Assembly (NCBI GenBank): GCA_905233955.1
Contig: CAJOFQ010000004.1
Span: 38,417 to 102,416, forward strand
Source of the DNA: an uncultured Lachnospiraceae bacterium
GTDB taxonomy: Bacteria; Bacillota; Clostridia; Lachnospirales; Lachnospiraceae
Length of the DNA: 64,000 nt
Direction: 5' to 3'
Below, piece by piece: positions 45,998 to 50,691 of the stretch (position 1 is the first letter of the stretch; every line of letters begins with the position of its first letter). A model generated the notes under the pieces. The model ran no database searches. It was given only the letters and a program-made list of their open reading frames with translations, and was not told the origin of the DNA. The position numbers and the translations under genes were made by a program.

Positions 45998-47904
45998 CAG
46001 ACGACTTACAGCAACAGGCTATACATCATGTAAGGGGGCCTTGCATAACCATTGCAGGCCCCGGGGCCGGCAAGACCTTTGTTCTGATCAGAAGGATTGC
46101 ATATCTGACAGAAAGCTGTCGGATACCGCCATCACAGCTTCTTGTGATAACCTTTTCAAGGGCGGCGGCCATAGAGCTTCGTGAACGATATCAAAAGGCT
46201 GTACGGCCGGAATTTTCAGGCGTTACATTTGCTACATTTCATTCTTTTTTCTTTCATATTCTTTGCAAATTCGGCAACTTTACCACCCAGAGCTTATTAG
46301 ATACCCAGACAAGACAGTATATTTTAAAGAGTGCGTGTGAAAAAGCCAATATTACGGACGCAGGCAGAGCAGGCTTTTACGGCCGTACAGCTTCGGAAAT
46401 CAGCTATATTAAAAATTCAGGTGTTTCCTGCGACGAATACGAACCAGCCGAGCTTACCAGGGAGGAATTAAAAGCGATTTTCTTTTATTATGAGCAGAAA
46501 AAGGATGAACTGGAAAAAATTGATTTCGATGATATGCTGATAAAAACCTACGAATTACTTAGAAATGATCCGGGAGTTCTTGATACTTACAGGAGCAAAT
46601 ACAGCTATATTCTGGCTGATGAAGCGCAGGATACTAATGAAATTCAGTATAACATTTTAAAAATGCTGGCCATGCCCTTAAATAATCTTTTTTTGGTGGG
46701 GGATGATGATCAGGCGATTTATTCATTCAGAGGAGCCATGCCGAAGCTTCTGCTTAATTTTACATCAGATTACCCTGACGCGAAAAAGGTTGTACTGTCC
46801 AGGAATTACAGATGCGACAGAGAAATAGTAAGAAAAGGACTTAAGCTGATAAAAAACAATACCGAAAGGTTTGAAAAACAGCTCAGCTCCGCCAGCAGGC
46901 TGGAAGGGAGTATAAGATACCTTCCCCACGCCGGTTATAAGGATGAGGCAGAGGACATAATAAGGCGCATAATAAGGCAAAAGGAGATAAAACCATTAGA
47001 AAAAATAGCTGTTCTTTACAGAAACAATGAGACTGCGCGAACACTGATAACGGAAGCGGAAAACCGCGGATTTTACATTAATGGAAAAAAGCATCACTAT
47101 AACTGGTTTGATTCAGAAACAGTAAGGATTGTAGAAGCGTATTTTTACGCTTTAATTACTGAAAAACAAGATTATATAATACAGATTATGAATGTGCCGC
47201 AGAGATATCTGCCAAGAAAGGGTCTTGAAGATAGTACTGTGGATTACAATCGCTGGAAGAAATATTTTATAAACGATAATGATGTAATAAATCGTATATC
47301 GGGCTTTGAAAGAGAACTGAAAATGATGAAAAATCTTCCGAGTTATGCAGTTGTAGCTTACATTATGTACACTCTGAATGTAAAAGGTTATCTGGAAAAA
47401 AATAACAGCTTTGATGAAAAAGCTCTGTCAAAGCTGTTAGAAATAGCGGAAAGTATTCCGGATAAAAAGAGATTTATCAAGGCAATAGATGGCCATAGAA
47501 TGAAAAAGGAAAAAGACACGGAAGAAACAAGCGAGGCAAACAGGCTGTATTGTTATACATTTCATGGATCAAAGGGTCTGGAATTCGACCATGTGTATAT
47601 TATCGACGCTAATGAAAGCATAACGCCGTCCAGATATGCCACTACTCTCCGGGCAATAGAAGAAGAGCGCAGACTGTTTTATGTGGCTATGACCCGGGCG
47701 AAGCATTCACTGACCATATCCGCCATAACGCGCAGGGGTAAGGAGATATTATATCCTTCACGATTCATCAGGGAAATTGCCGATGATCAGGAATCAGCTT
47801 CATTAACCAGCTCCTCAAATACTTCAGACACCAGGCGTGCTTCCTCGTCTGATTCGATATTATCAATGACAGGGCTTCCGTCCTCAAGCTCAAAATATCT
47901 GTAG
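45994..47904 (+). CDS. UvrD/Rep-family SF1 ATP-dependent helicase
   Basis: [75 protein letters not shown]. Confidence 0.93.
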
Positions 47905-48095
47905 AGCAAAATACCAAGATCTTCGAGAAAATCGCCGTTGTCATCTACAGGCATCAGAGCGATATAGTCGCTTCCGTCTACTTCGAAAATGACTACTATC
48001 TCACAATCCATCTCTGAATCATCGTCTAAAGTGATGGTTACCATCACATCGGTATCGTTCTCATCAACAGGAAATATCTCTTCATTTGAACGCAT
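47787..48095 (-). CDS. DUF1292 family protein
   Basis: MRSNEEIFPVDENDTDVMVTITLDDDSEMDCEIVVIFEVDGSDYIALMPV; start ATG at 48095 with AGGGAG; ORF track start 48137. Confidence 0.85.
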   Translation of the reverse strand: MRSNEEIFPVDENDTDVMVTITLDDDSEMDCEIVVIFEVDGSDYIALMPVDDNGDFLEDLGILLYRYFELEDGSPVIDNIESDEEARLVSEVFEELVNEADS

Positions 48096-48239
48096 AATAG
48101 CTCCCTTCGGACATGCTGCATAGTAAAATGTACTCATATGATACCTGTTACCATAAAAAAAAGCAATGTATGATTAAAAAATGAGAAATAATATGTTATA
48201 ATGGGTCTCGTGTATGCGCACTAGAGAGGCGGTTGTATT

Positions 48240-50078
48240 ATGAAAAAACAGATAACAATCGGTCATTTTACGAGATTTGGCGCAATAATTAAGGATAATA
48301 TAGCAGAATTTACCTTTGAGACTAAGACAGATCAGAGGGCGTTTATTCTGTTATATGACAGACACTCCAAAAAGCAGACTGCCAGGATTGCTGTTCCTGA
48401 AGATTATTCCATTGGCAGGGTTTATTCAATTCGCATAAGCGGATATTCCTGGGAGAGGCTGTGCTATCTTTTAGAGAAGGACGGCGATATCTGCATGGAC
48501 GAATATGCCTGCAGTGTTGTGGGCCGTGAGACATGGATGGATGAGAGCCGGTCCAAATCTAACTACAGGGTATATGGCGGATTCTGTCTGGGCGAATACA
48601 CCTGGAAGGAGACTCGAAAGGCTATTCTTCCGCAGGATATGGTACTTTACAAGCTCCATCTGCGTGGAATTACCATGCAGAACGGTTTGGGTACAGGCAA
48701 GAGGGGCAATTATAAGGGAATCATCCAAAAGCTCCCTCAGTGGAAGGAGCTTGGGATTACCTCCCTTGAATTTTTACCAATATATGACTTCGAAGAAATA
48801 AAATACCAGTTCCATTACAAGCTTGACGAGAACCGTAAGACTATGATGGTAGCTGAGGACCCCATCGGAACGAATTTCTGGGGATATGGTAAGGCTGATT
48901 ATTTTGCACCCAAGGCATCATATTTCGGTGCCAGGGATGCAGATATACATATGAAGCAGATGGTAGAAGCGATACATAATGCCGGGATGGAGATTATCAT
49001 GGAGATGTCTTTTGTACCGGGTATTAAGGAGGATCGCATTATAAATTGTCTGAGATACTGGGTTATGGAATACCACATTGATGGATTCCATTTGCTGGGT
49101 ATGGGTCTTCCGGTTGAACAGATAGCAGAAGATGCATTCTTGGGCAAGACCAAGATTTTTTATGATAATTTCCCTGAAGAGGTTCTGATGTCACAATCAC
49201 AGCCTGCGCATCTGTTTGTGACCAATGATGAATTTATTTATCCGCTCCGTAAGCTCCAGAATCACCTGGACGGCAGTATAGCTGAGCTGTCTAATTATTT
49301 AAGGAGACAGGGTAATGGTTACTCCTTTGTCAATTATGCTGCCAGTAATACGGGCTTTACCTTGTGGGATGCCTATTCCTATGGCGAAAAGCACAATGAC
49401 GGCAATGGTGAGGATAATTGTGATGGCAGCAATTACAATTGCAGTCATAATTACGGATGTGAAGGTCAGACAGCGAATCGCATCATAAACCGCAACCGTA
49501 TGACAGCGGTTAGGACTGCGCTATGTGCTGTTTTTACTGCACAGGGAGTGCCAATGATAATGGCAGGAGACGAGGCAGGAAATACTCAGTCTGGCAATAA
49601 TAATCCATACTGTCAGGACAATGAAGTTGGATGGGTTACATATTCCAGAAGGAAGCTTCCCAAGGAGCTGGCCAAATATGTAGCTAATCTTATCAAGTTC
49701 AGACGGGAACACAGCATATTGTCTAATCCCCTTCCCATGAAGATGAATGATTATAAGCACACAGGCATGCCGGATCTGTCTTATCATGGCAGACAGCCGT
49801 GGATAATGGGAATCGGAGAGGAAAAAAAGGCGCTCGGTATACTGTACAATTCTGCGTATGGAAGGGATCCCGAAGAAGAGGATGTCATGGTCTGTTTCAA
49901 TTTCTACTATGGCGAGGAATCCTTTGCACTTCCCAGGCTCAGGCAGAATCGCAAATGGTATTTTGTGACTAACTCAGGCCTTAATGAATGGATGCCTGAT
50001 GAAGAGCCTATGCAGGATCAGGGATATTGTGCGGTTCCGGGAGGAACTATAACCATACTCATTGGAAAGGAGCCTTGA
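48240..50078 (+). CDS. GH13 (alpha-amylase/debranching-like) protein with apparently lost catalytic residues
   Basis: GH13 scaffold incl. LPQWKELGITSLEFLPIYDF, GTNFWGYGKADYFAPKASY, EKHNDGNGEDNCDGSNYNCSHNYGCEG, VPMIMAGDEAGNTQSGNNNPYCQDNEVGW; catalytic motifs replaced. Confidence 0.85.
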   Translation: MKKQITIGHFTRFGAIIKDNIAEFTFETKTDQRAFILLYDRHSKKQTARIAVPEDYSIGRVYSIRISGYSWERLCYLLEKDGDICMDEYACSVVGRETWMDESRSKSNYRVYGGFCLGEYTWKETRKAILPQDMVLYKLHLRGITMQNGLGTGKRGNYKGIIQKLPQWKELGITSLEFLPIYDFEEIKYQFHYKLDENRKTMMVAEDPIGTNFWGYGKADYFAPKASYFGARDADIHMKQMVEAIHNAGMEIIMEMSFVPGIKEDRIINCLRYWVMEYHIDGFHLLGMGLPVEQIAEDAFLGKTKIFYDNFPEEVLMSQSQPAHLFVTNDEFIYPLRKLQNHLDGSIAELSNYLRRQGNGYSFVNYAASNTGFTLWDAYSYGEKHNDGNGEDNCDGSNYNCSHNYGCEGQTANRIINRNRMTAVRTALCAVFTAQGVPMIMAGDEAGNTQSGNNNPYCQDNEVGWVTYSRRKLPKELAKYVANLIKFRREHSILSNPLPMKMNDYKHTGMPDLSYHGRQPWIMGIGEEKKALGILYNSAYGRDPEEEDVMVCFNFYYGEESFALPRLRQNRKWYFVTNSGLNEWMPDEEPMQDQGYCAVPGGTITILIGKEP

Positions 50079-50691
50079 AATTATAATCTTAAACGCTTAT
50101 CGTCATTTTATGACAATTACGAATCACAGGAATCTGGTTAGAAAGCATTGCTTTGAGATGGGGCTTTTTTTTCAGGGGCTAACGCACGATCTTACAAAAT
50201 ATTCTCCTACGGAATTCATGGTAGGAGTCAAGTATTATCAGGGAGACAGGAGTCCGAATAATGCGGAGCGTGAGGCCACAGGCAAATCTCTGGCATGGCT
50301 GCATCATAAGGGACGGAACCGTCATCACCTGGAATACTGGATTGATTATAATCTGAACAAAGAAGACAGGGAGCATCCATTATGTGGCACCCAGATGCCT
50401 GTAAAGTATGTTGTGGAGATGTTTGCTGACCGTATGGCGGCTTGCAAGGTTTATCAGGGCAGCAGTTATACATCAAAAAATCCATGGAGATACTACAATA
50501 AGGGCAGGGAACATTATCTGCTTCATGAAAAGACCAGAAAACAGTTGGAGTTCATGTTGAAAATGCTGGCTGCACGGGGTGAGGACGAAACCTTTGCCTA
50601 CATTAGAAAACATATTTTACATAACGATGAAATGCCTCTGGTAAAAATATATAAAAGGATAAAAAGGCAGCAGCGTGCAGCTAATACATAG
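50062..50691 (+). CDS. Conserved hypothetical protein (DUF5662-like); start uncertain
   Basis: AYRHFMTITNHRNLVRKHCFEMGLFFQGLTHDLTKYSPTEF...WLHHKGRNRHHLEYW. Confidence 0.7.
   Translation: MERSLEIIILNAYRHFMTITNHRNLVRKHCFEMGLFFQGLTHDLTKYSPTEFMVGVKYYQGDRSPNNAEREATGKSLAWLHHKGRNRHHLEYWIDYNLNKEDREHPLCGTQMPVKYVVEMFADRMAACKVYQGSSYTSKNPWRYYNKGREHYLLHEKTRKQLEFMLKMLAARGEDETFAYIRKHILHNDEMPLVKIYKRIKRQQRAANT

Follow-up and report, generated by a model that had tools for sequence, protein, structure and literature searches.

A conserved GlgX paralogue of Lachnospiraceae with a probably inactivated active site

Introduction

Plant ISA2 is a non-catalytic GH13_11 paralogue in which at least four of the five conserved active-site residues are changed; it is retained across a whole lineage and has non-catalytic effects on glucan structure (PMC12510319). 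GlgD, a paralogue of a glycogen enzyme, is a regulatory partner of GlgC in some bacteria, and the same review mentions that Blautia obeum has two homologues of glgX but does not discuss their activity (PMC10395257). The GH13 alpha-amylase BmaN1 carries an Asp to His exchange at the third catalytic residue only and is active (PMC5347038); therefore, a single substitution need not abolish the activity of a GH13 enzyme. For inactive isoamylases in bacteria, a literature search that lay outside subscription papers and CAZy found only the work on plant ISA2. Here, we describe a GlgX-like gene at positions 48,240 to 50,078 of a 64,000-nucleotide stretch of DNA (the window; contig CAJOFQ010000004.1) from an uncultured Lachnospiraceae bacterium, whose incomplete assembly comprises 1.56 Mb and is 66% complete. 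A preceding sequence-only reading had proposed that this gene encodes a debranching-type GH13 pseudoenzyme that was repurposed, perhaps for glucan binding or regulation, and is not decaying.

Results

The gene lies on the plus strand, to which coordinates refer unless stated otherwise, and its frame is intact from ATG to TGA over 612 codons, as originally stated. The 612-amino-acid protein matches TIGR02100 with 251.5 bits (E-value 1.4e-74), which is below the equivalog cut-off of 640.9. A phmmer search of the PDB returned GlgX and ISA1 as top matches (E-value 4e-47), with about 20-24% identity to the nearest entries. The closest structures found by Foldseek for an AlphaFold2 (AF2) model with a predicted local distance difference test score (pLDDT) of 85 were rice ISA1 and Streptomyces GlgX. 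Full-length homology and a GH13_11 fold thus place the protein in the GlgX family and agree with the proposed debranching-type scaffold.

The active-site columns were taken from an alignment of E. coli GlgX and 25 other active relatives with members of the clade to which the window protein belongs. At the canonical positions H266, R334, D336 (nucleophile), E371 (general acid), H442 and D443 in E. coli GlgX numbering, the window protein carries P, H, L, D, N and T, which leaves Leu/Asp/Thr in place of the catalytic Asp/Glu/Asp of regions II, III and IV. Region I (residues 255-260; 49,002-49,019) reads EMSFVP instead of the active consensus DVVxNH. Region II (residues 281-287; 49,080-49,100) reads DGFHLLG instead of DGFRFDL, with the nucleophile Asp changed to Leu and the Arg to His. 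Region IV (residues 365-373; 49,332-49,358) reads NYAASNTGF instead of NFxTCHDGF, with both His and Asp gone. The sequence-only reading, which held all catalytic regions to be replaced, placed these three correctly but misplaced region III at LMSQSQ. The E371 column is occupied by D309, part of the stretch TKIFYDNF, which precedes LMSQSQ by a few residues, and the true region III is KIFYDNFP (residues 305-312; 49,152-49,175; active KLIAEAWD). Its conclusion that the general-acid Glu is lost stands, with Asp in the true column.

Beyond these substitutions, a loop of about 44 residues after region I is missing at 49,020-49,031. The spacing between regions I and II is 26 residues in the window protein and 25-29 in clade members, compared to 70 in all active relatives, and the loop is absent from all 83 members examined. 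The deleted stretch corresponds approximately to residues 269-309 of E. coli GlgX, many of which are invariant among active enzymes. Domain B of GH13 enzymes follows strand 3, and from this known position the deleted loop would have formed a wall of the cleft. An Asp/Glu/Asp set at shifted positions, by which the triad might have been retained, was not seen in the alignment. Both the deletion and the family-wide sharing of the loss pattern had been overlooked in the sequence-only reading.

The pattern of loss is common to all 83 near-complete members: 36 keep none of the six canonical residues, 27 keep one and 20 keep two. All six are present in 26 of 26 active relatives, and no intermediates were seen. 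The nucleophile column of the clade contains mixed, mostly non-acidic residues, and the acid column is likewise variable. One member (L150) has a chance Asp at the nucleophile site (DGFVLDEW), with the remaining canonical residues absent. From these columns, loss of catalysis in this GlgX-type clade is well supported. It is very improbable that the protein has remained a glycoside hydrolase that relies on unusual catalytic residues. The activity of BmaN1 despite its Asp to His exchange (PMC5347038) and the acidic D309 in the acid column could point in this direction, but BmaN1 retains nucleophile and acid, whereas the window protein has Leu in the nucleophile position and lacks the Arg and both His as well, and a full triad is found in 0/83 members. 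Several members (L143-L148) contain an insert at the position of region III, where the catalytic Glu formerly stood; it measures up to about 75 residues.

Matches to the window protein were obtained in 336 of 396 Lachnospiraceae genomes. Combining, from two tables, matches under 1e-60 with divergent members that were resolved separately, the inactive protein occurs in about 318 of these genomes (80%). A clade profile built from 26 members scores 620-860 bits for most members, among the matches listed. It scores at most 306 bits in 51 genomes of other families of the same order, where the five matches that were inspected are active enzymes with DGFRFD. In a class-wide draw of 142 genomes of other families, none reaches 1e-40. 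Judged by these searches, the inactive protein is a near-core gene of Lachnospiraceae with no comparable match in the roughly 190 genomes sampled from the other families of the order and class.

In a phylogenetic tree (LG+C20) of 59 sequences, of which 33 were subsampled inactive members and none were from plants, the inactive clade is supported with 100/100, the active Lachnospiraceae GlgX with 98/90, and the grouping of both with 100/100. The simplest reading of this topology is a single GlgX duplication and a single inactivation on the Lachnospiraceae stem, after which the inactive copy would have been lost in about a fifth of the genomes and the active copy in most. The duplicate may thus have lost its catalytic residues and the loop after region I before being retained under strong purifying selection.

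The ratio of nonsynonymous to synonymous substitution rates (dN/dS) was 0.056 (dS 0.29), 0.067, 0.10 and 0.13 for pairs with dS under 1.5. In the cleanest pair, where the inactive gene has 0.056, the neighbouring genes gave a similar 0.060 for gltX, 0.050 for the gene downstream of the DUF5662 gene, 0.019 for DUF5662 and 0.160 for the helicase. The constraint on the inactive gene is therefore that of an ordinary housekeeping gene under strong purifying selection. Frames are open in the homologues among the matches listed in the Lachnospiraceae search. A decaying pseudogene, which nothing but the lost residues themselves would suggest, has a negligible probability in view of the family-wide open frames, a dN/dS of about 0.06 and the presence in about 80% of genomes. 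Together with the catalytic incompleteness of 83/83 members in a single clade, this supports the proposal of repurposing. That the protein is a catalytically dead GH13_11 GlgX paralogue retained by selection is well supported by these comparisons.

An N-terminal beta-sandwich (48,240-48,540; AF2 strands 4-85) is predicted at the position of CBM48 in GH13_11 proteins; Pfam gives no match, and the CBM48 identity is suggested by the family architecture. The inactive and active clades share about 43 conserved columns, many of which lie in the loops after region IV (NGExNxDG) and region VII (GNNNxYCQD). In the window protein, these retained loops comprise residues 381-409 (YGEKHNDGNGEDNCDGSNYNCSHNYGCEG; 49,380-49,466) and residues 443-460 (GDE...GNNNPYCQD; 49,566-49,619). 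The inactive pocket also has a pattern of its own, with E255 in 89%, H284 in 83% and G287 in about three quarters of the clade, and D281 and D444-E445 likewise kept. These residues could indicate that the old pocket was rebuilt as a different active site for another reaction. Such a neo-functionalised enzyme is unlikely, as the old acid and nucleophile columns vary across the clade, one cleft-side loop is gone and the conserved residues could be structural.

A DUF5662 gene follows downstream (50,062-50,691; PF18907, E-value 2.5e-36), with an uncertain start at TTG 50,062, ATT 50,080 or ATG 50,110. Its ribosome-binding site AAAGGAG (50,066-50,072) falls in the final codons of the inactive gene. 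At 48 of 79 loci, a DUF5662 gene is found near the inactive gene on the same strand, including 44 at which it lies directly downstream; none of the 22 active GlgX loci has one nearby. Co-occurrence was assessed in 80 genomes, a non-random sample enriched for genomes without the inactive protein, and is loose, with DUF5662 in 37/42 carriers versus 30/38 non-carriers. DUF5662 was therefore rejected as a strict partner, despite the frequent adjacency. The invariant residues of DUF5662 (H26-D27, H65-H66, H72-H73, E75, D79, E103 and D107) resemble a metal site, which is perhaps HD-like. A PDB fold search with its AF2 model (pLDDT 78) gave no significant match, and no paper naming DUF5662 was found in a literature search.

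This adjacency, along with the invariant His and Asp residues, could fit a sensor or allosteric regulator built on the GlgX scaffold, which would bind a nucleotide, sugar phosphate or similar small ligand and perhaps relay a signal to DUF5662. This is also an improbable reading, since DUF5662 is nearly as widespread in non-carriers. Furthermore, the ExR(X)6R motif in the N-domain of the c-di-GMP-regulated GlgX of Streptomyces is absent from residues 1-100 of the window protein, the only sequence read for it.

In near relatives, the gene is surrounded by the housekeeping genes gltX, a UvrD helicase and trpS, and elsewhere by an apparent xth and an ABC-F ATPase gene, both named by sequence inspection only. 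Between the helicase and the inactive gene lies a DUF1292 gene (47,787-48,137, minus strand), which is directly upstream in 17 of 65 neighbourhoods. At four loci (L053, L065, L067, L069), a gene for a small membrane protein, TraX-like by a look at the sequence, separates the inactive gene from DUF5662. At another (L104), an active GlgX gene is located about 2 kb upstream on the same strand. In the window, a probable ribosome-binding site AGAGAGG (48,223-48,229) lies 10 nt ahead of the ATG. A possible sigma-70-type promoter (TTAAAA, 17 nt, TATAAT; 48,174-48,202) is a consensus match only, with a regional count near that in shuffled sequences. In the N-terminus MKKQITIGHFTRFG, a signal peptide is not apparent by eye.

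Discussion

We tentatively propose, with a probability of roughly 0.45, that the protein is a cytoplasmic, non-hydrolytic alpha-glucan-binding protein for the cell's own glycogen, derived from a dead GlgX duplicate and kept by selection. The N-terminal beta-sandwich and that half of the cleft which has stayed conserved, formed by the loops that follow regions IV and VII, would bind glucan chains or serve as a docking site for glycogen enzymes. By masking or presenting chains, the protein could set the structure or turnover of the polymer, as proposed for plant ISA2, and it would do so without a GlgX partner in most genomes. The role in glucan binding and organisation is inferred from this likeness to ISA2. 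The more specific notion of a partner-free, ISA2-like protein that organises or senses glycogen, evolved independently of plants and is a near-signature gene of Lachnospiraceae, is possible but more doubtful.

Glycogen is probably made by these bacteria, because glgC is present in 79 of the 80 sampled genomes and the window's genome has glgC with an adjacent glgD-like second, lower-scoring copy of the glgC family. For the same reason, co-occurrence with glycogen synthesis is uninformative. Several observations weigh against the proposed glycogen-binding role. The inactive gene does not adjoin glycogen genes, and about a fifth of Lachnospiraceae are without the inactive protein although they retain glgC. 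Its presence also does not track that of debranching enzymes, with active GlgX in 8/42 carriers and 11/38 non-carriers, and type I pullulanase in 12/40 carriers and 8/38 non-carriers.

These counts also bear on the possibility that the protein is a regulatory subunit of active GlgX or pullulanase, in strict analogy to the ISA1/ISA2 complex of plants. The sister relationship to GlgX, the existence of ISA1/ISA2 heteromers (PDB 9j6x) and a genome (G113) in which the active gene precedes the inactive one by about 2 kb are consistent with it. However, at the thresholds used, both active GlgX and type I pullulanase are missing from 22 of 40 carriers. Since active GlgX is absent from most carriers, an obligate GlgX-partner role is unlikely, and the strict subunit has a low probability. 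An obligate partnership with GlgX or type I pullulanase was rejected, as co-occurrence gives it no support. Many glgC-bearing genomes were also found without both enzymes at these thresholds, in a search that covered only these two debranching families.

If the proposed loss of catalysis is correct, annotation of clade members by GH13 similarity as debranching enzymes or amylases misreads them, and predictions of glycogen and starch degradation for common gut bacteria would then count a protein that does not cut. The clade would add a second example of an inactive isoamylase retained over long evolutionary time. The role of a non-catalytic isoamylase would also become testable in bacteria, many of which are without a confounding active partner.

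Compared to GlgX and isoamylases (GH13_11, TIGR02100), the clade shares the fold, the domain order and the two loops that follow regions IV and VII, and its sister clade is the active Lachnospiraceae GlgX. It differs in that the catalytic triad, the Arg and His of the -1 subsite and the loop of about 44 residues are gone, and in a score far under the equivalog cut-off. The BmaN1 group (GH13_45) likewise shares a substituted catalytic residue across the whole group, but only the third residue is exchanged in the active BmaN1, whereas the clade has lost the nucleophile and acid too. Similar to GlgD, the protein is a paralogue of a glycogen enzyme, and a second copy of the glgC family adjoins glgC in the window's genome. 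However, GlgD belongs to a nucleotidyltransferase family and is paired gene by gene with glgC, while the inactive gene is not paired with glgX. With ISA2, the clade has in common that a GH13_11 paralogue without catalysis is retained throughout a lineage. However, the clade joins bacterial Lachnospiraceae GlgX, which would point to a separate origin, most of its carriers are without an active isoamylase partner, and the window protein has 612 amino acids, with no extra N-terminal domain of the ISA2 kind apparent in its AF2 model.
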